DNA from: Gloeomargaritales cyanobacterium VI4D9
Lineage (GTDB): Bacteria; Cyanobacteriota; Cyanobacteriia; Gloeomargaritales; Gloeomargaritaceae
Length of the DNA stretch: 64,000 nucleotides
Assembly: GCA_927797885.1 (NCBI GenBank)
Contig: OV696605.1
Coordinates: forward strand, 2,331,157-2,395,156
Direction of reading: 5' to 3'
The notes beneath the pieces are model-generated. The model had not been told where the DNA came from. It searched no databases and saw nothing but the letters and a program-made list of their open reading frames with translations. The position numbers were made by a program, and so were the translations under genes. Numbering within the stretch: the first letter of the stretch is position 1; each line of letters starts with the position of its first letter. Of this stretch, positions 124 through 63,323 are shown piece by piece.

Positions 124-1767
124 TTACCTCAAAACGAGTTGAGCAAATAACCCACCTTCACCATTCCATTCTTTCTCCAACAGACGTACTTCTAGTTCAA
201 TTAAACGCCGATAGGTCAGCGAATAATTTGTGACTGGATGTTTCCAGCTTTCTCCTTTGCGCCGCTCATAGATTTCGATAAATTTTTTGCGTCCCGCATC
301 CGTAAGCCATACCTGTTGACCTCGTTTTTCAAAATCTTCTCGTACTTGCCACTGCCCCCGATTGATAGACGCAACCACAATCATATCCACCAAAGGTACT
401 CGAAAAATCTCCATCAAGTCCAGCCCCAAAGGATATGCCTGACTTCTCGGTTGATGATAAAAGCCCAAAGCTGGCTCCAATCCCACGGTCAAAATTGCAT
501 GATTGACATCCTTCAAAAGCAAAGCATAACCAAACCCCAATAAACAATTAAAACAATCCTGGGGAGGACGGCGATTACGACCAGAAAATTGCAACTCCGG
601 GTGAGCATTTGGCGAAATCAAATGGGGCAAACCCTGGAAATATAAAGCCGCTAAATTGCCTTCAACACCCAACAAAGATGCAATCGAATCCACAGATTCT
701 ACTTGTTTCAACAAAATCTTCATTTGGTCAATAATTTGCTGTAATTCCGCTGGTCGCTCCCCCCGCATCAAAAACCGCCGCTGTCCTTGCCCCCGACATT
801 GCACCAGTTGCCGTGCCAATCGTAAGCATAATTCCGGGTCAGTTAGGGCTTTATATTGCTGAATGCGTCTTTGAATACTCCCTTGGCGAGTGTCCAAACT
901 ACCTATGTACCGCCCGCCGCTAGAAACAAAATGCACCCCGATTTGTTGATAAGCACAGAGATAAAGTGCCTGGGTAGATATTTGCGCAAAACCATGCAAA
1001 ACTAACTGATCTACCATCCGGGCTGGTATTTTTTTGATTGGCTCATCGAGGGGGGAAATTTTTATTTCTTCACCACTTTTGCCCACTTTGGTTCCCGGTT
1101 CCATCACATGAATAATTTGCCGCTCTTCGTCCTTGGGAAATAAGCGCAAAGGTGCCCGCTCTGGGTCTTGAGCCAATCGTGCTTCTTCGGGCAAACAAAC
1201 CGGGGCAAGGGAACAGCGCACACATAATTTTTCATTTGTTGTTACCGGTGGTCTTTGGGGTGATTTTCGTAAATTTCTAGCCTGTTCAACCGCAGATCGA
1301 ACTTTCTGACGACCCGCATCATCCACCGGAATTTTTACCAAAACATTATCCCGGTGGTAGCGAATTCTTCCCTCTAAAACCGTTGTATTTAGTGCCGATT
1401 CAATTAAACAGGCATAGGCTAAAATTTGCAGAAGGTCACTCTCCCACGCCTGGGGTTGATAATTCTCACCCCGCCGACAACGACCCCGTTTATGTTCATA
1501 GGGAATGATCTGCCCATCCCGTTCCCGTATCGCATCAACTTTACCTCGTAAACCCAGTTCCACACTTTCTAAAACGAGTTCTTCCGTATCCTCATTTTTT
1601 TCTAGTTCAACGTGCAATCTCCGACCTGCAAATACCGCTTCATCCTGGGTATAAAGTTCCTCAACCTCTTCCAGATAAAACAAACGTGGGCAATAAGCCA
1701 GGGCATGGAGTGCAGAAACCCGGATGGTTTCCTGTTCTAAGGCGGGCAGGTCAGTGGTGAGTAGCAT
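124..1767 (-). CDS. cas4-cas1: Cas4-Cas1 fusion protein (spacer acquisition)
   Basis: A single frame joins Cas4 (about residues 1-200) to Cas1 (about 215-547). The Cas4 half has the iron-sulfur cysteines in the N-terminal [10 protein letters not shown] motif and the C-terminal [10 protein letters not shown] cluster, plus a nuclease core with the YEHKRG lysine region. The Cas1 half has the acidic residue of [10 protein letters not shown], the histidine of [20 protein letters not shown] and the downstream acidic site of the metal-dependent integrase. Such fusions are known in Myxan/Dev-like and I-G type systems; Cas4 trims prespacers and selects PAM before Cas1-Cas2 integration. I place the start at the ATG at 1767; an in-frame TTG at 1806 would add 13 residues. 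It follows cas5 after a 160-bp gap and may have its own promoter. Confidence 0.92.
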
Positions 1768-1968
1768 GGGGTACCCTTTAGAAAGTTTTAAGCTTTGGTC
1801 ACTCAAATTAAGTCATAGCACTCTTGACAAGTAATCAGTAAGTTCTATGATTTTGAGAACCAAAGCGGCGATTGGCTTCCACAGGGGAACCACCTTATGA
1901 CATTGGAGGTTGGGGGTACGGTCGGTCAGGTTCGTATTCAGTGGTCAAGGTTCAACGCTCAAACAAGG

Positions 1969-2646
1969 CTAAGCTTTAGGCTTGCGGGAGGATTTCTTAG
2001 CTTTGCCTGCCTTGGGGGCTGACTCCGCAGGTTTGGGAATCGTCACCCAACAATGCTCATGCCAGTCCGTACTCCAGCTAAACCGTTGGAAAGTGCCCTG
2101 TCCGGTTGCCCGGTTGATCCAAATGGGCAAGCTAATCAGCCCCCGATTGTCTTTGATCAGCCAACGAATGGCACCATCCTCTTCTCGATAGGCTCTAATC
2201 CCGTTCACCATTGCCCAAGATTCGCCCAAGCTCAAACCACCAAAACGAGTGATCTGTTCTGGAGTAGAGAGGGCGATCGCCACTCGTTCTGTTAATTTGA
2301 CCGTTGCAGACTCTTCGCTAGAATCTAGTCGCACGGCTATCTGCAAGTCGGTTAAAAGCTCTTGGAAGTTGGGCTTAGAAAACTTGCCAGTGGGGTAAGT
2401 TCCCATGTGGGTCTTGCTGAATTTGTGATGGCGCTGCTTCCGCACAATCCGAGAAATGGGCGGATCATCGCCAATAATGCCAATCGCAAGCTTGACTCCT
2501 AGATGAGCGGACATATCGGTTTCGCCCACCAGCGATAACAGGAAGCCGTAGATGGTTGAAGGGGGTGGATAACGATAGGTTTCTTTGTAGTCCCGTGCGA
2601 AGCTTCGAGGAAAGCTAGTGCAGGGACAATCGAGATACAACTGCAT
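1969..2646 (-). CDS. cas5: Type I Cascade subunit Cas5 (Myxan/DevS-like)
   Basis: This 225-residue protein opens MQLYLDCPCTSFPRSFARDY and continues with YPPPSTIYGFLLSLVG, the typical Cas5 N-terminal RAMP signature in which the conserved aromatic-proline-S/T segment caps the crRNA 5' handle. A glycine-rich FGGLSLGESW region follows. The C-terminal tail is very basic (KAGKAKKSSRKPKA). It lies 6 bp downstream of the RelE-like toxin and is the last gene of the interference operon. In related operons cas7 and cas5 are direct neighbours (devR-devS); here a toxin-antitoxin pair separates them. One HIP1 octamer (2273-2280) lies inside. Cas5 identity is firm; the exact subtype is from memory of the family. 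Confidence 0.85.
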   Translation of the reverse strand: MQLYLDCPCTSFPRSFARDYKETYRYPPPSTIYGFLLSLVGETDMSAHLGVKLAIGIIGDDPPISRIVRKQRHHKFSKTHMGTYPTGKFSKPNFQELLTDLQIAVRLDSSEESATVKLTERVAIALSTPEQITRFGGLSLGESWAMVNGIRAYREEDGAIRWLIKDNRGLISLPIWINRATGQGTFQRFSWSTDWHEHCWVTIPKPAESAPKAGKAKKSSRKPKA

Positions 2647-2652
2647 AGGGTT

Positions 2653-4024
<1,372 letters not shown>

Positions 4025-4078
4025 GGTGATGTCTCCAAGATTAAGATTGAGGAAAGAACAATTGGGGTTGAGAAAGAA

Positions 4079-5602
4079 TTACAGAACGTTGGCAGTTTCC
4101 TCAGCAGGCTCCTGTTCTATAACTGCTTCTTCTTCCTTGGTTTTGCCCTTATAGGTGGCGATCGCCAACAGCGCTAAATCCCGCGCTTTTCGCCAGTTCG
4201 ACTCCTGATGAATCCACCAAAAAATCTGTGGTCCCGCTGCACGGGCTGCTTTACTGCGAAACTGGCTGAGAAAATCGACCAAAGCCGTCGCAAATTCCTG
4301 TTGAGTATTCGGACGCTGTAAACGGTAAATGACCTTATCGGTCACCTGACCATAATCGAGTGGTCGTCCCTGCTTATTTGCTTGCTGAATCTGGTCGCGC
4401 AGAAACGCACTAAACGCCCCCTGCACCGCATCAAACAATATCTGCTCATCTGCATTTAAGTGTTCCGTCATAACAACAAGTCCCCTCCGATCTTCTGGAT
4501 AAATTGGGTTAGCTTTACGAAATTCAAAAAATCCGCTGTACCAAACTTTGTTGGCGATCAGGTTATCGCTGATCCAAGCCAGCACCTTGGATTCTGCTAA
4601 CCAAACTCCTTCCCCATCCTGTTTGGGACGGAGCCTTGGTTTTAGATTCTGATAGGCAATTCGATATAAACTCAGGGCTTCATCCTTTAGTGGAACTCGA
4701 TATACTGCCTGTTTAATGAAAGATTGCTGTTTATTCCATGGCTGACTACCCAATTGATAAACTTCGCAATAGTTCACCTTGAATAGAAGTGAATCATCTA
4801 GCTGTCTTTCATCAAGGAGAAATCTCAAAGCAGCTTCTCCAGCACTACTAGCTCGAAATTTGCCATAGGGAGATCCAAAATTGGCATAAATTTTGCTAGG
4901 TAACTTTTGACGAAGCTTTACCCATACTTTTAAGTTTTGTACCTCAGGAATCACGATTGCAGATCTACTTTTTCCGTTAAGTGTAGGCAATTGGTAGTAT
5001 CCGCAAGCAAGCGGCAAAAAAAGCAATGCTAGAAAATTACTAGATGATTCCTTGTAGGAGCCATTGACAAAGCATTCCTCCAAGCCAGGTAGTATTTGGG
5101 TCTTGACTTCTGGCTTTCCAGAGCTAAAGTCTTTTGCCAGTTTTGCTACTTCGGTGTAATAACAGGAATTCAGCAACGTATAGCTTACAGAAATTTCGGG
5201 GCTGTCTGGTTCAATCATGAAATTCAGCGTTTGCGTTTTGTAAAATTTCTTTTTACCTTCTTTAGGCTTATTAGGATCCTCTACAAAACTTTTCTGCTGA
5301 CTATGCTGTAGAAACGAAGACAACATCCCTTGATTGAAGGTAAACCATCCCTGCTCATCAAGATTTAGGGCTGGAGCAATCAATAGCCCACGTTGAATCT
5401 GGTAAGTCTGCTCCAACAGCCATTGAATTGCTTCTAAATCGCTCCCGTCCCACGATAATTTCACGGCATCTTCTGTCACCTCCCACTGGATTGGGGCAGA
5501 GGCGGGATCAAGCGCAGACAACGCCAGTGCTAACCCCGCTATCCCCGCTCGATGGGGTAACAACGTGTTTGGGTCGAAAATTGACAACACCAGTTCAGTC
5601 AA
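4079..5602 (-). CDS. cas8: Type I large subunit Cas8 (Cmx8/Csx13-like)
   Basis: A 507-residue protein opening with LSIFDPNTLLPHRAGIAGLA, the pattern of the Myxan-subtype large subunit (Cmx8/Csx13, Cas8a1-like), which recognises the PAM and anchors the target in Cascade. Its position between cas3 and cas7 fits. No nuclease motif is evident. The start is a TTG at 5602: an AGGAGGTGA ribosome binding site lies 8 bp upstream inside the end of cas3, there is an in-frame stop just before it, and the next ATG is far downstream. The C-terminus is rich in Glu/Ala (IEQEPAEETANVL). A HIP1 octamer lies at 4158-4165. Cas8 proteins diverge fast, so the call rests on the N-terminal motif plus context. Confidence 0.78.
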   Translation of the reverse strand: MTELVLSIFDPNTLLPHRAGIAGLALALSALDPASAPIQWEVTEDAVKLSWDGSDLEAIQWLLEQTYQIQRGLLIAPALNLDEQGWFTFNQGMLSSFLQHSQQKSFVEDPNKPKEGKKKFYKTQTLNFMIEPDSPEISVSYTLLNSCYYTEVAKLAKDFSSGKPEVKTQILPGLEECFVNGSYKESSSNFLALLFLPLACGYYQLPTLNGKSRSAIVIPEVQNLKVWVKLRQKLPSKIYANFGSPYGKFRASSAGEAALRFLLDERQLDDSLLFKVNYCEVYQLGSQPWNKQQSFIKQAVYRVPLKDEALSLYRIAYQNLKPRLRPKQDGEGVWLAESKVLAWISDNLIANKVWYSGFFEFRKANPIYPEDRRGLVVMTEHLNADEQILFDAVQGAFSAFLRDQIQQANKQGRPLDYGQVTDKVIYRLQRPNTQQEFATALVDFLSQFRSKAARAAGPQIFWWIHQESNWRKARDLALLAIATYKGKTKEEEAVIEQEPAEETANVL

Positions 5603-5608
5603 GATTAA

Positions 5609-7834
5609 TCACCTCCTGCTCAGTTCATAAGCGCCAATCTCTGATGAGTAGCCCCAGGCATCTGCCGGAGCTACCGGATACCGCCGACATTTTTTCCAAC
5701 CTTTGGTTTGTTTGCCACTGACTACCAGCGGCACCGTATAGCGAGGCAACAGCTTGGCAGGTAATGTCTCTACCGTTTTCACATCCTGCTCCAGCAGGAC
5801 GGTTGTGGTGTATCCAGCTTCTCGTAGTGAGGCTGGGTAGGTGCGCCATTCGCCATCGAGCCACACCGAATCTCGATCCGGGTTACCCTGCACAGCGGCT
5901 TGCTCCAGCCACGAGGCTAGATCCGCTTGACAAACTTCCTCTCCAAAGCTTTGGAGCAGGGCAGCGCCCATGTCTAGCTCGTCTTGTCCATAGGGAAAGC
6001 CTACTTTTTCATCGGGATAGAACAGGGCATCGAGGGCATGGCCGCAGTAGCGACGGTTCAGCCGTCCTAGCCGTTGAATCAGTCCGGCGGGGTCAGCAAT
6101 TTGAGACACTAGCAACGTGGCAGATAAATCCAGCGACATTTCGGCTACCTGGGTGGTAACGGCCATCACCGCTCCATCCCCCTTAAACCGATCCACGACC
6201 TCCCGGTGGTGATTGACGCGATCGCCATACTTGTAGCGGCTGTGGTAGAGCAATGGGTCTAGACCCCGCTGCTGGGCTTCCTTAAACACAGCGATCGCCG
6301 TATTCACCTGATTACACACCCACAAAATCTTGCCGCCTTGGTCAAATTCAGCTTGCACCCGTTCCCAGTTCGGTGCATCTGCTAAATGAAACCGATAACG
6401 CGGCTGGGTTTCCAAGTCTTGTGGTCCCTGGATAATGTTGACCGACTCGCCCACCGCCTGCTCGATCGCCTGTATTTGCCACGGCAAAAACGAGGCTGAC
6501 ATTAGCAGCATCGGAGCCTTCACGACTTCCAAAAACCGCAGCAATGCCCCAAATAGCTTGTCGTCGTAGCAGTGGACTTCATCAAACACAAAAGCTGCCT
6601 GGGCGATCGCGGGAAAGCAGTACATCGGGCGACGATTGCATTGCAACAGCCCCAACACGGTATCCACCGTACAGACGTTGACCTTTGTACTCCATGCTTT
6701 GAAGGACTCTAACTTGGTTTCCAGGTCATCATCATCCCCAGTGGACTGTAAATCTAAATGCTCCAGATCAACCGCAGCCCGACCATGCAGCAACGTGGAG
6801 TCTACTTTTTCATGGGCATAATCTAGAAAACCCTCAGTGCTGGTACCTGTGGTGGGATAGCAGAAAAACAGCTTGCGACCCACAGCATGGCGTTTTGCCC
6901 AGTTATAGGCTCCTAAGGTTTTACCCGTGCCACAACCGGCCCTGGCCAGCGTGACTCGTGAGGTGGCATTGCCCAACTGTTCTTGGAAGGGGCGTAATGG
7001 TTTGCCTTCCAGGCGTTCATTGACAACATGCTGGAGTTCAGGCTCGGTCAGCGTGTACCGAATTTGCGTCTGAATCCACGGTCGGATTTTGACATCGTTT
7101 GCTGGGAGGGCTGAGCCGCTGGTATCCCCTGCTACAAGCAATGCTTTCACCACAGCCGTGAAAACGGGATCGGCATTCCAAGTGGACAATTGCTGTAAAA
7201 GCAGTTGTCTACGCTGTTTGATCTCTGCAATTGTCCAAGTAGTTGGTAAACCTTGAGGAAGGTCTGAGGCAAGTCCGCAAGCCTTCTGTCCATACCGCAG
7301 CAATCCCTGGAAGTGTTGGTGATTGGTATAGAGAAGGATGCGATCGCCCCTTGTCCACTCATCCACACCCGATTCTCGAATCTCTCCCACTTCATCGGTT
7401 TGTTTGCCTGATGTACCGCCTAGTTTGAGATGATGACCACCCGCAGCGGCGATCGCCACCATCACATCACCCTCCCCGGTTGATAACCAATCTCTCAATT
7501 CCCAGGCCAACAAGACCGATAGCGCCTCATGCCGCATCAGTTGTGGATTGTCTATTGGGTTCTTGAGCTTACGAACCACTGCTTGAAAATGGTCATTCGC
7601 TTTACCCAAGTCATGAAGAAACGCCGCCAGCCGAGCCGTAGCACGCCAGGTTTTAAAGTCCTGAGACAGCCCAAACTGCTTGATTAATCCATCGCCTAAT
7701 TCATCAAGTAGCGTAGTCACCGCTTCGACCACAGCCGCCGTATGTCCAGTCAGGGTATAGGCCCCTTTCCACGGCGTTTCCTTTGATTTAGCTAATAGCA
7801 GTTTGGGGGGTAAAGGCTGGTTTTTAGCTGGCAT
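5609..7834 (-). CDS. cas3: Cas3 HD nuclease-helicase
   Basis: A 741-residue Cas3 with an N-terminal HD domain and a C-terminal superfamily 2 helicase. Visible motifs are TGHTAAVV and AAFLHDLGKANDHFQ (HD metal ligands), GGHH further on, Walker A AGCGTGKT, the DEVH box in VFDEVHCYDD, LLMSASF (motif III), and QVAEMSLDLSA with QRLGRLNRR (motifs V-VI). Cas3 is recruited by Cascade on target DNA and degrades it. Cas3 here is one polypeptide rather than split Cas3'/Cas3''. I start at the ATG at 7834, overlapping the cas6 stop by 11 bp; an upstream in-frame start at 7873 is less likely. It is followed 6 bp later by cas8. Five HIP1 octamers fall in this gene. Confidence 0.93.
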   Translation of the reverse strand: MPAKNQPLPPKLLLAKSKETPWKGAYTLTGHTAAVVEAVTTLLDELGDGLIKQFGLSQDFKTWRATARLAAFLHDLGKANDHFQAVVRKLKNPIDNPQLMRHEALSVLLAWELRDWLSTGEGDVMVAIAAAGGHHLKLGGTSGKQTDEVGEIRESGVDEWTRGDRILLYTNHQHFQGLLRYGQKACGLASDLPQGLPTTWTIAEIKQRRQLLLQQLSTWNADPVFTAVVKALLVAGDTSGSALPANDVKIRPWIQTQIRYTLTEPELQHVVNERLEGKPLRPFQEQLGNATSRVTLARAGCGTGKTLGAYNWAKRHAVGRKLFFCYPTTGTSTEGFLDYAHEKVDSTLLHGRAAVDLEHLDLQSTGDDDDLETKLESFKAWSTKVNVCTVDTVLGLLQCNRRPMYCFPAIAQAAFVFDEVHCYDDKLFGALLRFLEVVKAPMLLMSASFLPWQIQAIEQAVGESVNIIQGPQDLETQPRYRFHLADAPNWERVQAEFDQGGKILWVCNQVNTAIAVFKEAQQRGLDPLLYHSRYKYGDRVNHHREVVDRFKGDGAVMAVTTQVAEMSLDLSATLLVSQIADPAGLIQRLGRLNRRYCGHALDALFYPDEKVGFPYGQDELDMGAALLQSFGEEVCQADLASWLEQAAVQGNPDRDSVWLDGEWRTYPASLREAGYTTTVLLEQDVKTVETLPAKLLPRYTVPLVVSGKQTKGWKKCRRYPVAPADAWGYSSEIGAYELSRR

Positions 7835-8483
7835 TTGCTTCCTCCTTTGCTGGATAAAACCAACCACAGCCAAAATGTTGGCGACCGCCTAATCCATACC
7901 ATTGCAGCTTTAGAGAATCCTCTTGACTCAACCCTTCGACGACCACGCTATAACCCACAACTTTCTTATTTCTTATCTGTAAGGTGCGTCGTGCCAAGTC
8001 TCCATCATGATCGCTGGGAATAAACGCCTTGCCTTTGATGTTTAGGCGTTCCAATCCCTTCTGGCATGACTCTAGAAAATATCGCGGCACATCCGCATGA
8101 TCGATGGCTTCTAGCTTAAACGTCACCAGCCTGGATGCCAACGTATCACTGGCTTCGGGCAATGTGATTCTTGGTTGAACCAAGCGAATCAGATGCCCTC
8201 GAATATCCAAAACCTGATTTTGCAACAATCGATACCAGGTCTGCATTTGGTCTGATGGGCATCGCAACCTAAAGCGAGAGCCTCGATTCAGATAAATCAT
8301 CCCCGCTCGATCTGGAATACCCGAAATAGTGCAGAGGTGAACCTCGGCAGGTAAGTCACCAGGAAGTGATTCATTTTCTTGTTCTTGAAGCCGCTTTTTC
8401 ACGGCAGAGTAAAGTGCATAGCCATGATCCGCAGGCAATGTTTTACCCTGAAGTGAATATTGCATCTCTAAAAAATTCACCAT
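7824..8483 (-). CDS. cas6: Cas6 crRNA-processing endoribonuclease (Cmx6-like)
   Basis: A 219-residue RAMP protein that heads the operon. The N-terminal YSLQGKTLPADHGYALYSAV, the central HLCTISGIPDRAGMIYLNRG segment and the C-terminal GLGGRQHFGCGWF glycine-rich loop are typical of the Cmx6 form of Cas6, which cuts the repeat RNA to release crRNAs. The histidine in DHGYALYSAV is a candidate general acid/base. It is translated just ahead of cas3 with an 11-bp overlap. This is the only cas6 in the window, so it might also serve the type III-B array at 50-60 kb, but the repeat used by this operon's own array is not visible here. Confidence 0.83.
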   Translation of the reverse strand: MVNFLEMQYSLQGKTLPADHGYALYSAVKKRLQEQENESLPGDLPAEVHLCTISGIPDRAGMIYLNRGSRFRLRCPSDQMQTWYRLLQNQVLDIRGHLIRLVQPRITLPEASDTLASRLVTFKLEAIDHADVPRYFLESCQKGLERLNIKGKAFIPSDHDGDLARRTLQIRNKKVVGYSVVVEGLSQEDSLKLQWYGLGGRQHFGCGWFYPAKEEANAS

Positions 8484-50144: not shown

Positions 50145-51197
50145 GGGCGGAGAATGTAACCGATGACATCAGGCTACCCTGGTTTTAGCAAAAATCCAGT
50201 GCCGCAGGTTACAAGAACAGGGTAATTTCGGGGGGTAATAGTAATTTTTAATAAAATCCTTAGACTTGACTGGGGAGCGATGCCCCTGGCGCCTAGAAGG
50301 GAATTGGGAAATTTAGGGAATGGTTAAGCCACTCCCCATGTCTCTATTTCCCGCTTGGTCGTGTTGATCCTCTGGTTTCCAACAAATCCAATTAACGCAT
50401 TGGAAGCGAGTCACCTTCGATTTCGATATGGTGATTATGCCGGGGTTTCCAACAAATCCAATTAACGCATTGGAAGCGAGAAAGAGGAACGGGGAGTATG
50501 GACTACTCTTCCTCCGGTTTCCAACAAATCCAATTAACGCATTGGAAGCGAGATAAAACACACAACGACAAATAGGAGCAAAATAATGTTTCCAACAAAT
50601 CCAATTAACGCATTGGAAGCGAGACTCAATACCACGTGGGAAGACGTGGACGCCGCAAAGTTTCCAACAAATCCAATTAACGCATTGGAAGCGAGTTGGT
50701 GGCAAAGGTGGCGGCTGCCTTGAAGCCGCTGTTTCCAACAAATCCAATTAACGCATTGGAAGCGAGACAGCACCATCCGCCAGGCGGTGGGTACCACCCG
50801 GGTTTCCAACAAATCCAATTAACGCATTGGAAGCGAGAAAGCAATAATCGTTCTTGACCCCCATGCCATTGCGGTTTCCAACAAATCCAATTAACGCATT
50901 GGAAGCGAGACAGAAAAGAAGAAAAGAAAAAAAGCCCGACCTCACCGTTTCCAACAAATCCAATTAACGCATTGGAAGCGAGATTCGACAACCATCCAAG
51001 TTCGCCCTTACAGCCGTCGTTTCCAACAAATCCAATTAACGCATTGGAAGCGAGTGTAGTAACTGTGGGCATCGGGTGCAAAAAACTTTGTTTCCAACAA
51101 ATCCAATTAACGCATTGGAAGCGAGCCCGGCAGGCTGGACGGCGCAAAACCGGTATCCACCGTTTCCAACAAATCCAATTAACGCATTGGAAGCGAG

Positions 51198-51252
51198 TAT
51201 AATGATTTTACGCCAGGGATTGTTGATTTGATTGAGGCACTTCGCAATGGAT
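51198..51252 (+). CDS. C-terminal end of an upstream phage gene (partial)
   Basis: The first frame of the insert is open from its first base: YNDFTPGIVDLIEALRNG and TGA at 51250-51252. The stop overlaps the ATG of the next gene by a few bases, a common phage arrangement. Only the last 18 codons exist, so the protein cannot be named; in Mu-like phages a portal or minor head gene would lie here. Confidence 0.5.
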
Positions 51253-51480
51253 GATTACAATTGGTTTTGTCCTTTGTTGGACGAAGTTATTGAAGATGGT
51301 GACTGTACGGACATCAATTTTCAGCGTCTTGGTATATTTCCCGAAGATTTTGTTTTGTTGGAAGCGAAAGAAAAAACCAGCAAGACGACTGCTGAAATTT
51401 CCCAAGTGTGTGAAAAATGCCCCAATCGTTTCAAAGTTCTCTATTACGATGAAAGTGAAAAGGCAAGTTTAAGAGTGTAA
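51247..51480 (+). CDS. Small phage-like protein with CxxC, complete
   Basis: A 77-residue protein: MDDYNWFCPLLDEVIEDGDC, TDINFQRLGIFPEDFVLLEA, ISQVCEKCPNRFKVLYYDES. Four cysteines (FCPL, DGDC, CEKC) could bind a metal. I do not recognise a named family, though CPL...I..G.C.DI is a pattern of small phage/prophage proteins. The ATG at 51247 overlaps the previous stop; a TTG at 51232 is less likely. The next gene starts 4 bp after its stop. Confidence 0.65.
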   Translation: MDDYNWFCPLLDEVIEDGDCTDINFQRLGIFPEDFVLLEAKEKTSKTTAEISQVCEKCPNRFKVLYYDESEKASLRV

Positions 51481-51483
51481 GCA

Positions 51484-51756
51484 ATGGCTAACGTGCGTTT
51501 GGACGGGCTGGAATCCCTGGAGCAACGGCTCAGGAAGCCAGCACTATTTCGGGCGTGGGTGCAATACCTGGAGAGAAGGATGGTCACGGCGTTTCGCACA
51601 GAGACCTCCCCGACGGGGCGCAAATGGGCTGACCTGCAACCGAAAACGAAACTAGCCAAACGCACTCGCAAGCGTCCAAAGTCCCGTTATCCGAACAGAA
51701 TCTTGCGGGAGTTTCCAACAAATCCAATTAACGCATTGGAAGCGAGAGGTGCCTGA
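51484..51756 (+). CDS. Phage virion morphogenesis protein (Mu gpG-like), truncated by the array
   Basis: The 75 phage codons read MANVRLDGLESLEQRLRKPA, FRAWVQYLERRMVTAFRTET, SPTGRKWADLQPKTKLAKRT and NRILRE. The F..E..P.G..W..L...T...K.........IL pattern is the phage virion morphogenesis (gpG of Mu) family, where ILR is normally followed by DTG.L. Exactly there the frame enters the CRISPR repeat and ends after FPTNPINALEARGA in the next spacer, so the C-terminal half is absent. Confidence 0.7.
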   Translation: MANVRLDGLESLEQRLRKPALFRAWVQYLERRMVTAFRTETSPTGRKWADLQPKTKLAKRTRKRPKSRYPNRILREFPTNPINALEARGA

Positions 51757-52756
51757 GGAGTGGAGGGTGCCCCCACCACCTGTTTCCAACAAATCCAATT
51801 AACGCATTGGAAGCGAGAGAGTGGCAGCCCGTTGCACAAGGCGAAGAGAAAATGGTTTCCAACAAATCCAATTAACGCATTGGAAGCGAGAATCCACATA
51901 GCAGACGGATATACATTAGAAAAACAGTTTCCAACAAATCCAATTAACGCATTGGAAGCGAGCGAAAGTCCGGCGCTGTCTTAGTACCAAAACCAAAGTT
52001 TCCAACAAATCCAATTAACGCATTGGAAGCGAGTGGAGTGTAGGTGATATGGCAACTGTACTCGCTTAGGTTTCCAACAAATCCAATTAACGCATTGGAA
52101 GCGAGCCAGATGAAGTTACGGGAGCACTTATTTTGAACCGTTTCCAACAAATCCAATTAACGCATTGGAAGCGAGCCTCAAAGGCTGACGGTTCTTGAGG
52201 TCAGAACGACAAAGGTTTCCAACAAATCCAATTAACGCATTGGAAGCGAGACGCTCCATGCCCCGGTAATGCTGAGGGTTCATGAAGTTTCCAACAAATC
52301 CAATTAACGCATTGGAAGCGAGGCGTCTTGTATTTCGGGACGGACTTTCTCCCCATGTTTCCAACAAATCCAATTAACGCATTGGAAGCGAGAACACCAA
52401 CATCAACACCCATTCCATTGTTAAGTTCGGTTTCCAACAAATCCAATTAACGCATTGGAAGCGAGCCTACTTCTTCTTTGCTGATTGCTTGGAAAAGGCA
52501 CAGTTTCCAACAAATCCAATTAACGCATTGGAAGCGAGGTCAAACTAGAACCCTACGCGGGTTACTTCGTATTGTTTCCAACAAATCCAATTAACGCATT
52601 GGAAGCGAGCCTGGTTTTTTCTGTTTCCCACAGTCACTTTCTCTACAGTTTCCAACAAATCCAATTAACGCATTGGAAGCGAGCCCGGTAAATGGCAAAG
52701 TCCTCCAACTGGAGGACAGCGTTTCCAACAAATCCAATTAACGCATTGGAAGCGAG

Positions 52757-52862
52757 TCCAGTGTGACGTTCAGGGACTGAAGCGCCTTGTGTTTCCAACA
52801 AATCCAATTAACGCATTGGAAGCGAGTGATATATTCCGGCTGGGGGGGGAATCCCATGTCGT
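52757..52862. repeat. Two-spacer block duplicated at 54414-54519
   Basis: The spacers at 52757-52790 (starting TCCAGTGTGACGTTCAGG) and 52827-52862 (starting TGATATATTCCGGCTGGG) with the repeat between them recur unchanged at 54414-54447 and 54484-54519. The spacers on either side of the two blocks differ. The copies are 1657 bp apart. Confidence 0.93.
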
Positions 52863-53479
52863 GTTTCCAACAAATCCAATTAACGCATTGGAAGCGAGGT
52901 GGTGCCTTTGGGACGCAGTCGGGACAAATCAACGGTTTCCAACAAATCCAATTAACGCATTGGAAGCGAGTCCGATTTAGGTACCGGGTGCCCGCCCTCT
53001 AGCAGGGTTTCCAACAAATCCAATTAACGCATTGGAAGCGAGTATGGACTTGTACCGGGCGACCGGCTCCTATGCGTCTGGTTTCCAACAAATCCAATTA
53101 ACGCATTGGAAGCGAGAACTATTCATCAGCAAGGGTGGCGCAGTTGGAAGTGGTTTCCAACAAATCCAATTAACGCATTGGAAGCGAGAGCTAGTTACGC
53201 CCTTCACCCAACAGTCGGAAATTTGTTTCCAACAAATCCAATTAACGCATTGGAAGCGAGTGGTTCGGAGGCAATGTACCCAGGAGTTCAAAATCAAGGT
53301 TTCCAACAAATCCAATTAACGCATTGGAAGCGAGACTTGCCAAGAGACTCCGTGATGGGCAGTAAACCGCGTTTCCAACAAATCCAATTAACGCATTGGA
53401 AGCGAGATAACCAAAAAGCATCAACATTCCTTTTAGGTTTTATGTTTCCAACAAATCCAATTAACGCATTGGAAGCGAG

Positions 53480-53656
53480 CTAGCCTAAATACGGCCATGC
53501 TTAATGCCGGTTTTGTTTCCAACAAATCCAATTAACGCATTGGAAGCGAGCTAGCCTAAATACGGCCATGCTTAATGCCGGTTTTGTTTCCAACAAATCC
53601 AATTAACGCATTGGAAGCGAGCTAGCCTAAATACGGCCATGCTTAATGCCGGTTTT
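53480..53656. repeat. Same spacer three times in a row
   Basis: Spacers 53480-53514, 53551-53585 and 53622-53656 are identical (CTAGCCTAAATACGGCCATG...). This is a tandem triplication of a spacer-repeat unit, most likely from slippage or recombination between repeats. Confidence 0.95.
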
Positions 53657-56600
53657 GTTTCCAACAAATCCAATTAACGCATTGGAAGCGAGCGCCAATT
53701 AAAGTATCTGGTAGTGGGGGCGGCAATTCGGTTTCCAACAAATCCAATTAACGCATTGGAAGCGAGTTTTGGTTAAGTAAGGTTGAACGTATAACGGGAC
53801 GGTTTCCAACAAATCCAATTAACGCATTGGAAGCGAGTTGTAAGACGTGACCAGGCACCGCACCAGTTGATTGTTTCCAACAAATCCAATTAACGCATTG
53901 GAAGCGAGGAATTTATTATCGGTTTCCGGGGTATGCGCTGGTTTGTTTCCAACAAATCCAATTAACGCATTGGAAGCGAGAGTATCCGGTGGATTATCTC
54001 CGGCGGGTGTTGCCAGTTTCCAACAAATCCAATTAACGCATTGGAAGCGAGTACGGCTTTTGGGGCTTTTACGTTTCAGCTTGCGCTGTTTCCAACAAAT
54101 CCAATTAACGCATTGGAAGCGAGGTAGGACGGTGGGAGAGGAGCAAGAACCCTACACCCAAGTTTCCAACAAATCCAATTAACGCATTGGAAGCGAGACT
54201 ATCAGGCAAAAACTTCATGGTTTAGTCCCCTTTGTTTCCAACAAATCCAATTAACGCATTGGAAGCGAGAGGAATACGTTGAGGCTTTAGGTAAAAAGAC
54301 AAAACGTTTCCAACAAATCCAATTAACGCATTGGAAGCGAGGGGGTGGTCTGCCCCTCACTGGCAAAATTTTGCGAAGTTTCCAACAAATCCAATTAACG
54401 CATTGGAAGCGAGTCCAGTGTGACGTTCAGGGACTGAAGCGCCTTGTGTTTCCAACAAATCCAATTAACGCATTGGAAGCGAGTGATATATTCCGGCTGG
54501 GGGGGGAATCCCATGTCGTGTTTCCAACAAATCCAATTAACGCATTGGAAGCGAGAAGGGCATCATTTGGACGGGTCGCCCCCGTCAATAGTTTCCAACA
54601 AATCCAATTAACGCATTGGAAGCGAGTCTGGGTTTGAATCCGGCATTTAACAAAGACATTGGTTTCCAACAAATCCAATTAACGCATTGGAAGCGAGTCG
54701 ACGGCACCTTCTCGTAAAATGCGGGTACAAATTCGTTTCCAACAAATCCAATTAACGCATTGGAAGCGAGCCCGCACCACCACCTGGCACGGTTGCCCCG
54801 CCAATTGTTTCCAACAAATCCAATTAACGCATTGGAAGCGAGATTGGTCCCAAACCGGAAAGCGAGAGCCAAGTCCGGTTTCCAACAAATCCAATTAACG
54901 CATTGGAAGCGAGGTACAACTTACGCATACTCCCCTCCAACGTACCAACTGTTTCCAACAAATCCAATTAACGCATTGGAAGCGAGAGTGTTTGTAGGGG
55001 CTGGCATTTTTGCAGAATTGCATCGTTTCCAACAAATCCAATTAACGCATTGGAAGCGAGCTTTGTAAATACAGATAGGCGGCTACCCCAAATCTGATAG
55101 TTTCCAACAAATCCAATTAACGCATTGGAAGCGAGATTCTGCTGGTTGAATCGGCCGTTGTTGAGGGTCACAGTTTCCAACAAATCCAATTAACGCATTG
55201 GAAGCGAGTGTCTAAAGCAATCAGCAGACAGGGATGGCGTAGGGTTTCCAACAAATCCAATTAACGCATTGGAAGCGAGACACAGGTAGCAAGCCTAACC
55301 TCTCGCTTGGAGTAACCCGTTTCCAACAAATCCAATTAACGCATTGGAAGCGAGGTTTTACTAGGACTAGCACACAGTGCGTTCACAAAGGTTTCCAACA
55401 AATCCAATTAACGCATTGGAAGCGAGTCGAAATCGGGCAGTTCGTTGCCATCCCTCCCTCCTGTTTCCAACAAATCCAATTAACGCATTGGAAGCGAGGA
55501 GAGGAGTTGGTAAGGAAGTCGAGTCTTGGGACGGTTTCCAACAAATCCAATTAACGCATTGGAAGCGAGCTGACCAGTGACGGCAAGGGGTCTTGGTGTG
55601 CGCGTTTCCAACAAATCCAATTAACGCATTGGAAGCGAGCATTTGGTAATTAAGGACGTTCTCAAGATGAACGAGTTTCCAACAAATCCAATTAACGCAT
55701 TGGAAGCGAGCAGACAATGGCAGAGGCAAATAACGTTGCTGCTCAGAAGTTTCCAACAAATCCAATTAACGCATTGGAAGCGAGGGGAGAAAAAAGACGT
55801 CAAGTCATTTGGTTAATTTTGTTTCCAACAAATCCAATTAACGCATTGGAAGCGAGTAAACGTCGGACTCTTCTTCGCCCGGTAATCAAATAGTTTCCAA
55901 CAAATCCAATTAACGCATTGGAAGCGAGAACACTTGCCCCTACCGTCGAATGACTGAAGGTCGAGAGAGTGTTTCCAACAAATCCAATTAACGCATTGGA
56001 AGCGAGACCTGTTCAGCGCTGCTGGACAAACCTTTGATTTGCAGTTTCCAACAAATCCAATTAACGCATTGGAAGCGAGTGGCGTAAGTTTAAGGACCAG
56101 CCAAGGGTCACGGGGTTTCCAACAAATCCAATTAACGCATTGGAAGCGAGCGATATGTGCCCCAATATCTAACACAACACCATCTAGTTTCCAACAAATC
56201 CAATTAACGCATTGGAAGCGAGTGTAATTTCTAAATCCAACCTGTCCGGTGACCACAGTTTCCAACAAATCCAATTAACGCATTGGAAGCGAGCTCGATG
56301 CGCGCCATATTAGCCGGCGCCCCCTGAAAGGTTTCCAACAAATCCAATTAACGCATTGGAAGCGAGAGCCTGATTCGTGCGTTTACCGGCCCGGCATCGC
56401 CCGTTTCCAACAAATCCAATTAACGCATTGGAAGCGAGCCGATTATTTCTCATTTGAAACATCTTTACGAGCTCGTTTCCAACAAATCCAATTAACGCAT
56501 TGGAAGCGAGGGTGAAATTAGGCTGTTGGTGTGCCCCGCTTCCCTGCCCGTTTCCAACAAATCCAATTAACGCATTGGAAGCGAGTCTTTTCAGGTGACT

Positions 56601-57013
56601 TTCTCGCCTTTGGCTCCTCGTTTCCAACAAATCCAATTAACGCATTGGAAGCGAGTCCAAAGGGGCGGCGGAAGCCCTCCTGCGGGCAATGGTTTCCAAC
56701 AAATCCAATTAACGCATTGGAAGCGAGAAACTCCGGGTGGCATTAGCCGCTCGGCGGCTTTGTTTCCAACAAATCCAATTAACGCATTGGAAGCGAGCTG
56801 GCGGAATGGTTTGCCCATTCCATCCCTTGGATGGTTTCCAACAAATCCAATTAACGCATTGGAAGCGAGACGTTACCGAGCCCAAACCCAATCCCACCAT
56901 TATTCGTTTCCAACAAATCCAATTAACGCATTGGAAGCGAGTCTAGTGCAAGAAGTGATCCTCGAGTCCTTAGAAGTGTTTCCAACAAATCCAATTAACG
57001 CATTGGAAGCGAG

Positions 57014-57121
57014 GTGCATGCCTACTTCTTGAAGAAGATCCCGCTTCCTGTTTCCAACAAATCCAATTAACGCATTGGAAGCGAGGTGCATGCCTACTTC
57101 TTGAAGAAGATCCCGCTTCCT
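57014..57121. repeat. Same spacer twice in a row
   Basis: Spacers 57014-57049 and 57086-57121 are identical (GTGCATGCCTACTTCTTGAA...), a tandem duplication of one spacer-repeat unit. Confidence 0.95.
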
Positions 57122-60059
57122 GTTTCCAACAAATCCAATTAACGCATTGGAAGCGAGACGCCAAAGCAAACCCGTCCCGCAATTGCAGGCTGGGTTTCCA
57201 ACAAATCCAATTAACGCATTGGAAGCGAGATGAAGCTGGAGTGGCGAGCCCCGTTAGTGCATGAAAGTTTCCAACAAATCCAATTAACGCATTGGAAGCG
57301 AGAAGTGTTGACTTTGAATTTCAAGACCGAGAAATAGTGTTTCCAACAAATCCAATTAACGCATTGGAAGCGAGTAAATATGTATTATAACCAGCAGAAA
57401 GCCCTCTTGTGGGTTTCCAACAAATCCAATTAACGCATTGGAAGCGAGAATTAATTTATTATTTATCAAAAAGCTTGGGTCTAAAATGTTTCCAACAAAT
57501 CCAATTAACGCATTGGAAGCGAGAGTTAAACACCTGAAGAATCTTTACGAGCTTCCCAGCTGTTTCCAACAAATCCAATTAACGCATTGGAAGCGAGAAG
57601 ATAACGGTGCGACCTACTTCCTGCATCGTGCCTTCAGTTTCCAACAAATCCAATTAACGCATTGGAAGCGAGATACATCCTAATAGTGTGATTGCCCAGG
57701 TAGCGGACGGTGTTTCCAACAAATCCAATTAACGCATTGGAAGCGAGGCTTTTCCATATTACCGTTGTGTTTACCAAATGCCGGTTTCCAACAAATCCAA
57801 TTAACGCATTGGAAGCGAGCAAGACGCGGCCAGTGATTGGGATGGAAGACGTCAGTTTCCAACAAATCCAATTAACGCATTGGAAGCGAGCTAGTGAAAG
57901 CTTGGTACGAGTTCCTCCACCAGGAGGAGTTTCCAACAAATCCAATTAACGCATTGGAAGCGAGGGGAAGCAGCGGGAATGGACACGAACTGCCCGATCG
58001 TTTCCAACAAATCCAATTAACGCATTGGAAGCGAGGGGTTGCTGCCCCCGGCGGTGGAACAGGTTGGAGTGGAGTTTCCAACAAATCCAATTAACGCATT
58101 GGAAGCGAGATTCATCCGTTCGGTTGCAGTTCCCTACCCTTGGCTAAGTTTCCAACAAATCCAATTAACGCATTGGAAGCGAGAGATTGCTGCCCGGCTC
58201 CCGAAGGAGCAGGCCAAGTTTCCAACAAATCCAATTAACGCATTGGAAGCGAGTGAACATCGCCCGGCGGATCCCGGACATCATTGCGTTTCCAACAAAT
58301 CCAATTAACGCATTGGAAGCGAGTCCCCGAGTTGCAAGTCGAGATGCCCAACGCCATCGCTGTTTCCAACAAATCCAATTAACGCATTGGAAGCGAGTAT
58401 CTTTGGATAAAATCCCTCAATATTGAGGGTCACGTTTCCAACAAATCCAATTAACGCATTGGAAGCGAGTACTCAAATCCTGTTCACGAATGACAATCAA
58501 TTGCTCGTTTCCAACAAATCCAATTAACGCATTGGAAGCGAGCAGAATTTTACAAAGATAGGTAATGACGTTGTATGAAACGTTTCCAACAAATCCAATT
58601 AACGCATTGGAAGCGAGCTGATTAGCGGGAAGTCCCAAGGCATCCAGTGAAGGTTTCCAACAAATCCAATTAACGCATTGGAAGCGAGAAAATTTCATCA
58701 ATCCCATCAGAGTAACCATCATCGCGTTTCCAACAAATCCAATTAACGCATTGGAAGCGAGATCAAACGAAAATTCGATAAAGTACCCCGGCATGGAGTT
58801 TCCAACAAATCCAATTAACGCATTGGAAGCGAGCAAAGTCTTACGCATGAAGCAGGAGCGAAACAATGGGTTTCCAACAAATCCAATTAACGCATTGGAA
58901 GCGAGTAAACCGTGTTTCGCTCCACTTCTAAGAGGTAGGATAAGTTTCCAACAAATCCAATTAACGCATTGGAAGCGAGCATCATGGATATTGATTTATC
59001 GCAGTATCAGTTTGATGTTTCCAACAAATCCAATTAACGCATTGGAAGCGAGAGGACACCGACATTAGTGTTAGTCCCCATGCCAGAGTTTCCAACAAAT
59101 CCAATTAACGCATTGGAAGCGAGTGTACATCAATTTGATGTCCCTTGGTTAAGTTGAAAAGTTTCCAACAAATCCAATTAACGCATTGGAAGCGAGATTT
59201 AGCAAATGCACCCGCCGCTGTTGTTAAGCCTGTTTCCAACAAATCCAATTAACGCATTGGAAGCGAGATGATGCTTTAGCAGAATTTCCGCACTGCTTGT
59301 TCGTTTCCAACAAATCCAATTAACGCATTGGAAGCGAGGAGGCATCGGAGTTAGAGAAGCGGTTTGAACAGGAGTTTCCAACAAATCCAATTAACGCATT
59401 GGAAGCGAGACATAGACGACATCTTCGCCGGGATAGACCCGCCCGTTTCCAACAAATCCAATTAACGCATTGGAAGCGAGTTAACTGTGTCTCAATGGGC
59501 GGATCAATATCGTATTTGTTTCCAACAAATCCAATTAACGCATTGGAAGCGAGCACCACCACAATCTGCCACTGTGGGGACAAGCTCTCGTTTCCAACAA
59601 ATCCAATTAACGCATTGGAAGCGAGAAATAACAATAAAACCATCAACAATACGTTTAACTTTGCGTTTCCAACAAATCCAATTAACGCATTGGAAGCGAG
59701 AAATATCAGGCTAGAACAACGCATTAAAGAATTAGAAGTTTCCAACAAATCCAATTAACGCATTGGAAGCGAGATATGACGTATTTATTTATGATGTCAG
59801 AGTGGCAGTTTCCAACAAATCCAATTAACGCATTGGAAGCGAGCCTATTTTTCACAGTCTGACAAAACCCGCCGCAAAATGTTTCCAACAAATCCAATTA
59901 ACGCATTGGAAGCGAGAGTCCTGAAGGCGTGTTGTTGCCGTTGGCAGACCTAGTTTCCAACAAATCCAATTAACGCATTGGAAGCGAGGGTGCCCCCAAA
60001 GTGGTTTAGATGCAATGGTGGAAGTTTCCAACAAATCCAATTAACGCATTGGAAGCGAG

Positions 60060-60260
60060 TCCCTTGTTTAGGATTGGCTCCTAGCCTACCATTCCGGGGG
60101 CGTTTCCGCCAACCCCCCACAGGTGTTAGTACATTTCGCCCAAAATCGCCCCCACAAAACCTGTAAACGCCGTCTGGGAGCCACTCCGACGACCTCCACG
60201 ATAAAATCGGCTTTTCCCGGTTTGGCTGACCCCGGCGGTGAACACTGTGAACCATATCCC
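60060..60260 (-). promoter_or_regulatory. Candidate CRISPR leader and array promoter
   Basis: 201 bp between the last repeat and the stop of the J-domain gene. On the minus strand a possible promoter is TTGGCG, 18 bp, TAGGCT ending about 30 bp before the first repeat; it is not strong. The region contains no gene of its own; frames through it have no family resemblance. Placement as leader rests on repeat polarity and on cas1-cas2 lying at this side. Confidence 0.6.
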
Positions 60261-61526: not shown

Positions 61527-61808
61527 TCAAATCACCGTTGAACCTTGTGGTTCTGATAAGGGTCTGCCACCCCAAATGATCATTTGTTCGATTGCATAGG
61601 TAGGAATCGGATAAAATCGCACACTGTCCTCTTCGATTTTTATGCGTCTTTTTAATCTTTTTTGCAATTCGGTTAATTTTTCTGCTGATAACCAGCATTC
61701 AAAGACACTATACTGCACCCTTTGACCATACCCTTCCAATAGTTCTGCCACCTGGCGCCGCCGCCGATTAGAAGGAATATCATAGCTCACAACCATCAGC
61801 CGTTCCAT
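61527..61808 (-). CDS. cas2: Cas2 of the type III-B locus
   Basis: A 93-residue Cas2: MERLMVVSYDIPSNRRRRQV, GYGQRVQYSVFECWLSAEKL, RRIKIEEDSVRFYPIP. The YDIP aspartate and the Q.SVFEC strand are typical. The ATG at 61808 lies 2 bp after the cas1 stop (cas1 stop codon at 61811-61813); a TTG at 61814 would overlap. Its sequence is unlike the Cas2 at the left edge of the window, so the two systems have separate adaptation modules. Confidence 0.93.
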   Translation of the reverse strand: MERLMVVSYDIPSNRRRRQVAELLEGYGQRVQYSVFECWLSAEKLTELQKRLKRRIKIEEDSVRFYPIPTYAIEQMIIWGGRPLSEPQGSTVI

Positions 61809-61810
61809 GA

Positions 61811-62788
61811 TCAATCAATTTGATAGGGCGTATAAACATAATCCATATTCAAAACCGCTTGCCGATATTTTTTTACCTGTTGTGCTAATAATTCCCAACG
61901 CAGACCCTGACCCACTTTGGCTTCCATCCGCCGAATCCAGGCTTGTAAAAAAATACGCTTCCCACCGTCATTCAAAAAACACCCCCCATTGCGATATTCA
62001 AAATCCCGTTCCGCTCGAATTTCTTTCGTATTAATTAAACTTAAAACCAAACTATCAACCAAGGGCGCACGAAACTCCTCAATCAAATCCGAAACCAAAC
62101 CCAAATGCCCATGATGATCCGTGTGCAAAGTTCCCACCCTCGGATCAAGTCCTTGGAACTCCACCAAAAGCAGGACATGATTCCACAGCACCTGATAGCC
62201 AAAACTCAGCAGAGCATTCACCGGATTCGCTGGGGGTTGCCGGGAACGCCCCATCAACACAAACCCCTCCCCCCGCAAACATTCCCCCAACGCCGGGAAA
62301 TAGATAGCCGCCGCCGCCCCCTCGATGCCCCGCACCTGGTCGAGGGTCTGGCATCGCCCCAGCCGTTCCGCCAGCCATTGCAGGGAATCAATCACCCGTT
62401 CTGTCCCCGTGACCCCATAGCGCCGGTAATGACGTAATAATACTGTACGACTATTGCGGATTTTGGCACGTACGATCACTGCCGCCATTCGCACCTGCCA
62501 AGCCTGGGAAGTTTGCCTTTGCGCCAGATAGCAGACCCAAGACCCCCATCCCACTGGCAACGTCCGCCCGTAACACCAACCACTGCGGGACAGATACGCC
62601 AAGGGGATGTGGTGACCTAAACACGCCCGTACCGCCTGGGTGGTGATTTGCACCATACCCAAAAGCATGACCGCTTCCAGCAGAGGCAGTTGCCCGATGC
62701 ACCGCCGTTGTTCGCCCCGCTTCAGGTACAGTTGCTCTGCGGATACTCCCACAACCGCTCCCTGCTCGACCAAGTACAATGTCCGCAT
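61811..62788 (-). CDS. cas1: Cas1 integrase of the type III-B locus
   Basis: A 325-residue Cas1: RTLYLVEQGAVVGVSAEQLY at the N-terminal beta domain, VRGIEGAAAAIYFPALGE with the catalytic Glu, HTDHHGHLGLVSDLIEEFRA with the catalytic His and acidic residue, and AKVGQGLRWELLAQQVKKYR at the end. It is not fused to Cas4 or reverse transcriptase. It starts immediately at the csx18-like stop with no spacer and is followed by cas2. It inserts new spacers at the leader end of the adjacent array. Confidence 0.95.
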   Translation of the reverse strand: MRTLYLVEQGAVVGVSAEQLYLKRGEQRRCIGQLPLLEAVMLLGMVQITTQAVRACLGHHIPLAYLSRSGWCYGRTLPVGWGSWVCYLAQRQTSQAWQVRMAAVIVRAKIRNSRTVLLRHYRRYGVTGTERVIDSLQWLAERLGRCQTLDQVRGIEGAAAAIYFPALGECLRGEGFVLMGRSRQPPANPVNALLSFGYQVLWNHVLLLVEFQGLDPRVGTLHTDHHGHLGLVSDLIEEFRAPLVDSLVLSLINTKEIRAERDFEYRNGGCFLNDGGKRIFLQAWIRRMEAKVGQGLRWELLAQQVKKYRQAVLNMDYVYTPYQID

Positions 62789-63097
62789 CTACAACCAGGG
62801 ATCACGCTGGCGCAGGGATTCCGAAACCCGCTCGATGTCGGAGCTAATGGGTTGCGGTTGTCCTGACGGTATAGCGGAAGAACGTGGCATTAACCAAAAA
62901 CACACCCCATCCATCACTGTTGCTGTCAGCCACGTTGCCCCCGTGACCAGCAATGTATTGGTCAGCACCGCCGCCAACCCCAACGGGGCAATCAGCAAAA
63001 CAATCAGCGTAATCGTGCCGTTGACCACCGCCAATACCAAATTTCGCATCTGCAACTGCCGCACGTGCAGAACCAACCACATCCCCTTGCGAGCCAT
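62789..63097 (-). CDS. csx18: Csx18-like small membrane protein
   Basis: A 102-residue protein: two hydrophobic segments, RNLVLAVVNGTITLIVLLIA with PLGLAAVLTNTLLVTGATWL, then a polar C-terminal tail ending ERVSESLRQRDPWL. The R(N/D)..LA.VNG.ITL..LLIAPLGLAAV.TNT pattern is that of Csx18, a membrane protein found beside cas1 in cyanobacterial type III-B loci. Function unknown; perhaps a membrane effector or adaptation partner. The ATG at 63097 has GAGGTGG 7 bp upstream. Its stop directly touches the cas1 ATG. Assignment is from memory of the family. Confidence 0.75.
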   Translation of the reverse strand: MARKGMWLVLHVRQLQMRNLVLAVVNGTITLIVLLIAPLGLAAVLTNTLLVTGATWLTATVMDGVCFWLMPRSSAIPSGQPQPISSDIERVSESLRQRDPWL

Positions 63098-63323
63098 AGC
63101 CGTCCACCTCAAGCCACTTGCCCCAGTATGACTCGCCCTGGAATCGCTCCCTTCCAAGGGTTGCCCTTACCCAAGGATCAGGACAGCGGAATTGTTTCAC
63201 CATATGAAGGACTAAGTCCCCAAATCTAAAACCTCTCTGAAATTCCTGACCTTTGCCCCGGTCAATGAATTACGCTCTTCCAACAAGTCTTTATACTCAA
63301 AACATTCCCTATCCATCCTGTCT

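Follow-up and report, generated by a model that had tools for sequence, protein, structure and literature searches.

How does a piece of phage DNA 513 nt long come to stand where a CRISPR array should have a spacer? In the accepted view, prespacer trimming and the Cas1-Cas2 ruler together set how long a spacer is. The question is raised by an array in the window, by which we mean the whole 64,000 nt stretch of DNA analysed here.

Structure of the array

A scripted scan of the window identified a CRISPR array of 128 copies of a 36 bp repeat (GTTTCCAACAAATCCAATTAACGCATTGGAAGCGAG), none of which carries a mismatch. The spacers in 126 of its 127 units are 34-42 nt long, with a mode of 36, and the remaining unit is about 14 times the length of an ordinary spacer. 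The features around it are as follows.

50375..60059, minus strand (strand inferred from the conserved leader side): CRISPR array of 128 identical 36 bp repeats, 126 normal spacers and the 513 bp unit
51162..51197, minus strand: repeat 12, perfect
51198..51710, plus strand: 513 bp phage fragment replacing a spacer
51711..51746, minus strand: repeat 13, perfect

A whole-genome search gave the same repeat number and the same 513 nt gap, so that the scan and the search agree with the first-pass annotation, which had described repeats 12 and 13 as intact and 513 bp apart. The source genome is a single 3.16 Mb contig (99.9 % complete), and the 513 bp segment is single-copy within it. There is no copy of GTTTCCAACAAATCCAATTAACGCATTGGAAGCGAG inside the segment, where repeat-like strings reach 10 nt at most (TTGGAAGCGA at 51358). 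The string TTTGTTTTGTTGGAAGCGA, at 51349-51367 within the phage fragment, has a 10 nt exact match to each end of the repeat; the probability of this arising by chance is in the order of a few per cent.

Like an ordinary Cas1-Cas2 spacer, the unit is DNA of mobile-element origin (a gpG-like phage gene, with prophage homologues in a genome of the same genus, G004) and lies exactly between two perfect repeats in an array that has its own adjacent cas1 and cas2. It differs from the other 126 spacers in length and in carrying one whole gene and parts of two others. The other units with the same repeat in three genomes (n=182) are all 34-43 nt long, suggesting that the acquisition machinery is normally strict. 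Across the arrays read in the source genome (G000) and its relatives G003 and G004, about 470 spacers in all, this is the sole unit in which phage genes lie between two perfect repeats. We found no report of natural CRISPR units of such size in a literature search that reached few subscription journals.

Some spacers are duplicated within the array: spacers 27-28 are the same as 50-51 (52721-52862 and 54378-54519), spacers 37, 38 and 39 are identical (53444-53656) and spacer 86 is the same as 87 (56978-57121). The base composition at the spacer ends reveals no strong motif, and no known RNA family was matched in the array region.

Gene content of the 513 bp segment

The segment contains three ORFs in one direction, and the end of the first overlaps the second.

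51198..51254, plus strand: 3'-terminal part of an upstream phage gene, which probably encodes a MuF-linked toxin (C-terminus YNDFTPGIVDLIEALRNG, followed by the stop); weak similarity to the gene at the same position in G004 (p 0.02-0.06)
51247..51480, plus strand: complete 77 aa ORF, a probable immunity gene as judged by position only; homologue of the small ORF preceding gpG in G004
51484..51710, plus strand: Mu gpG-like virion morphogenesis (tail completion) gene, first 75 codons, truncated at repeat 13

The gpG-like fragment matches the PHROG 26 profile (E 8e-5) and, short of the curated cut-off, Pfam Phage_tail_S (PF05069; E 1.3e-3). Its longer homologue in G004 gives a Pfam E value of 1e-13 and also matches annotated morphogenesis proteins, for example that of Stenotrophomonas phage StM171. 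By profile match, the fragment is a member of the Mu gpG-like family (PF05069/PHROG 26). The 77 aa protein matched no Pfam family. One promoter-like and one terminator-like site are present in the segment, a frequency expected by chance.

The first-pass annotation had proposed a search of phage and prophage sequences. DNA searches of phage and plasmid collections gave no match to the segment, but prophage homologues were found in G004, the only one of 58 relatives with a DNA-level match. There are six such places in G004, with 82-87 % identity, and they sit in decayed prophage modules made up of Phage_Mu_F fused to a CdiA_C domain, small ORFs and gpG. The truncated gpG protein itself was not found in the viral contigs or genome contigs searched. 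The 77 aa ORF is 30 % identical to the small ORF located just upstream of gpG in G004 (pairwise E 1e-9), and each of the two ORFs begins within the end of the gene before it. The gpG sequence differs from that of G004 at 39 positions, which are distributed 10/7/22 over codon positions 1/2/3, as expected of a once-functional gene. An unrelated viral contig (L119) also has a MuF-like gene followed by gpG.

Homology and gene order thus confirm that the 513 bp are phage-derived. ORF analysis is likewise in agreement with the earlier description of three genes in a single direction with an overlap and a gpG frame cut at the repeat, and the claim of a phage fragment is supported by the PHROG 26 match, the weaker Phage_tail_S match and the same gene order in the prophage remnants of a sister species. 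Taken together, the G004 gene order, the homology of the 77 aa ORF and the shared overlap suggest, as the simplest reading, a segment that runs from the end of a MuF-linked toxin gene, through a probable immunity gene for this toxin, into the start of gpG. The 77 aa ORF directly follows the probable toxin C-terminal domain, and it is from this position that we take it to be probably the immunity gene. In gene order and homology the captured DNA resembles the Mu-like F-toxin/immunity/gpG prophage module (Phage_Mu_F + CdiA_C in G004, L022); the array, however, has only a 513 bp slice of it, in which the toxin and gpG genes are truncated. At L022:6588-9907 and L023:7449-9158, G004 has several copies of toxin and small-ORF cassettes, accompanied by incomplete gpG starts, and these look like recombining MuF-toxin/immunity modules.

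Junctions with the repeats

At the right edge, phage homology extends to the very base that adjoins repeat 13: of the final 30 bases, 25 are identical to G004, in which the gpG gene (83 % identity) continues beyond the junction point. At the left edge no stop codon interrupts the frame of the upstream gene as far as the first base of the unit, and the clearest homology (DLIEAL versus DLLEAL) starts about 27 nt in and is statistically weak (p 0.02-0.06). From these limits of homology the right edge is exact, and at the left edge as much as about 27 nt may be of some other origin.

Neither terminal inverted repeats nor a transposase were found in the unit, as had been noted before, and an origin as a transposon, IS or MITE was rejected on these grounds. 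The further claim that there is no target duplication needs correcting: two perfect flanking repeats are exactly what integration by Cas1-Cas2 would duplicate, so that finding them is not a neutral result. Two CRISPR arrays of G004 (L072:5383 onward and L073:6768 onward) contain a MITE of about 190 bp with inverted ends TGGGACTTT...AAAGTCCCA. This element likewise leaves an abnormally long gap between repeats, but it is bounded by inverted ends and interrupts a repeat or spacer, neither of which is true of the 513 bp unit.

The cas locus and the direction of transcription

The array is followed by adaptation genes, and the features on this side, together with the stretch of the long unit that is predicted to be used as a guide, are listed below.

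60060..60260, minus strand: probable leader, conserved in G003 and G004
61527..61814, minus strand: cas2
61811..62788, minus strand: cas1, 325 aa, with cas4 neither fused nor adjacent
62789..63157, minus strand: csx18
51675..51710, minus strand: predicted crRNA guide stretch, antisense to gpG mRNA, based on array orientation and type III 3'-end trimming

Beyond cas2-cas1-csx18 there is an operon in which PADLOC identified Cas10b, Cmr3, Cmr4, Cmr5 and Cmr6; with Cas10/Cmr2 and Cmr3-Cmr6, the system is of type III-B. Just past the window, beside this operon (L019:6975-12234), three integrase-like genes in a row and a DUF6262 gene form a recombinase-in-trio-like arrangement. A separate type I-B (MYXAN) system with a Cas4-Cas1 fusion and Cas6 is located at 124-8483 of the window.

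From repeat 128 through cas1 the sequence is 94 % identical to that of G003, and it is conserved in G004 as well; the opposite end of the array is not conserved. This, and the GGAAAC end of the repeat, place the leader at about 60.1 kb and suggest that the array is likely to be transcribed on the minus strand. No sigma-70 consensus promoter was found in the probable leader. Counted from the probable leader, the long unit is the 116th. Transcribed on the minus strand, it would give a crRNA antisense to gpG mRNA, as an RNA-targeting type III system would require. In type III systems generally, the complex trims crRNAs at their 3' end. The first-pass annotation had predicted a long stretch antisense to three phage genes; this is retained for the pre-crRNA, but the mature type III-B crRNA would be expected to hold only the first 30-40 nt beside repeat 13.

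Spacer targets and a putative PAM

Two other spacers of the array have perfect matches. Spacer 59 (55025-55135) matches, over 39 of 39 nt, an integrated element with an integrase and a Prim-Pol gene in its own genome (L070:6804-6842). Its crRNA would be in the sense orientation to the target gene and should be harmless to a type III system. Spacer 61 (55209-55243) matches two sites on an 86.9 kb contig of G003 (C2; L041:5003-5037 and L042:5056-5090); the protospacer examined is in a tnpB-like gene, to whose mRNA the crRNA is antisense. The first 3312 nt of the spacer string had no match in phage records.

PAM flanks were taken from the targets of spacer 59 (own genome) and spacer 61 (both G003 C2 sites) and from a homologue of spacer 98 only. 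The putative PAM is AA at -3,-2, found in three flanks, the only ones available. At the right end, the flanks in the G004 relatives of the long unit are GTG and ATA, in sequences that are just 83 % identical to the source.

Origin of the long unit

The reading that we favour, with a probability of roughly 0.52, is that a long untrimmed prespacer was integrated by Cas1-Cas2 and that the crRNA made from it is still an ordinary one, owing to type III 3'-end trimming. In this proposal, where the integration chemistry, the crRNA trimming and the immunity are all steps that we infer, the source DNA would have been a Mu-like phage or prophage related to those of the sister species. Cas1-Cas2 would have inserted a double-stranded fragment of about 513 bp at the leader-proximal repeat, one end of the fragment being ligated to either end of the repeat, with the customary trimming to about 36 bp skipped. 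Gap repair would then have duplicated the repeat, which would leave perfect repeats on both sides and no transposon features, and the unit would have shifted leader-distally as about 115 newer units joined. The pre-crRNA would be cut at the repeats and 3'-trimmed to the length protected by the complex, giving a normal crRNA antisense to gpG mRNA, so that the surplus length would be nearly cost-free.

Several observations argue for the long prespacer. The adaptation genes are adjacent and have no cas4 trimming nuclease; the unit has perfect repeats on either side and no inverted ends; phage homology extends as far as the right edge, and the upstream frame stays open as far as the left; and G004 has the order MuF-toxin/small ORF/gpG. 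Consistent with this, substrates that have not been processed are acquired in vitro by Cas1-Cas2 alone (PMC8034620), and in type I-D the trimming of the non-PAM end of the prespacer falls to a host nuclease of unknown identity (PMC10212523). The in vitro reactions without trimming partners resemble our case in that the substrates were not cut to spacer length, but those substrates were tens of bp long, whereas the unit described here is about 0.5 kb and lies in a natural array. Against the long prespacer, the 182 other units are of strict length, the literature searched has no natural unit this large, the first 27 nt or so are not clearly phage and the right-end flanks in G004, which come from 83 % relatives only, lack AA.

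The main rival, less likely but plausible, is recombination, in which the phage fragment entered by gene conversion or break-induced repair through one or two ordinary spacers from the same phage and replaced the DNA between. Such an event likewise leaves phage DNA flush with the repeats, the internal spacer duplications indicate that the array does recombine and phage origin is less certain for the outermost bases on the left. It requires, however, that one or two spacers came from a single locus of a single phage and stood in the correct order and orientation, and that recombination took place over about 36 bp; the G004 phage modules are matched by none of the array's other spacers, and there is no clear spacer-plus-PAM boundary 34-42 nt inside the left end. 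Both integration of a long prespacer and recombination fit the data, which do not separate the two: the left junction is less sharp than the right, and there are three flanks from which to judge the PAM.

It is quite improbable that a mobile element or prophage inserted into a spacer and that a later deletion left the 513 bp remnant. Array insertions are known in the genus, as the MITE in the two G004 arrays illustrates, but inverted ends and a transposase are absent, the right junction is exactly at the repeat edge and random junctions would leave a partial old spacer or repeat. Identical-repeat arrays are hard to assemble, but an error joining phage reads to the array is very unlikely given a single, nearly complete contig in which the phage piece occurs at no other place. 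A chimera, moreover, would have required repeat-flanked phage DNA, whereas the exact repeat was not found in the viral contigs, giving no sign of a phage-borne copy.

A second long unit and variation in other arrays

The second array of the same genome, of type I-B, contains another long unit, in the region L070:15673-16265 (G000:C1:2327672-2328264). This unit is 521 bp long (L070:15709-16229), lies between a degenerate trailer-end repeat and the remaining array and holds two small minus-strand ORFs. It has no homologue in seven relatives, no Pfam family and at best a very weak PHROG match, and may accordingly be a second, older case or an unrelated insertion. A broader proposal, which we regard as doubtful, is that this Cas1-Cas2, which has no Cas4, occasionally integrates gene-sized DNA, and that arrays can in this way take up and retain not just guides but entire genes (here a probable phage toxin-immunity gene). 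The 521 bp unit, which lies in an array whose own cas1 is fused to cas4, would then be a second, older case in the same cell.

Repeats vary in other arrays. In the third array of the source genome (L068; G000:C1:3094000-3097435) the last two repeat bases differ by copy, as if spacer-derived. In one G003 array (L039:4128-6878) the repeats occur in blocks of two alleles, with A or T at position 10, which suggests array recombination or repeat replacement. At a second G003 locus (L075:11698-12568) a degenerate repeat adjoins a truncated cas1 fragment, and cas2 lies between the repeat and the array.

Implications

The data suggest that the spacer-inserting machinery, or recombination, can occasionally place gene-sized DNA in a CRISPR array. 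If integration of a long prespacer is the true origin, then this stable, natural and clean-edged unit, 14 times the usual length, would mean that full integration in the cell is not strictly tied to a spacer-sized substrate, and a type III array would be seen to tolerate a gene-sized unit. This raises the directly testable question of whether this Cas1-Cas2, which has no Cas4, integrates long fragments. If recombination is true instead, arrays would be open to overwriting by the DNA that they target.
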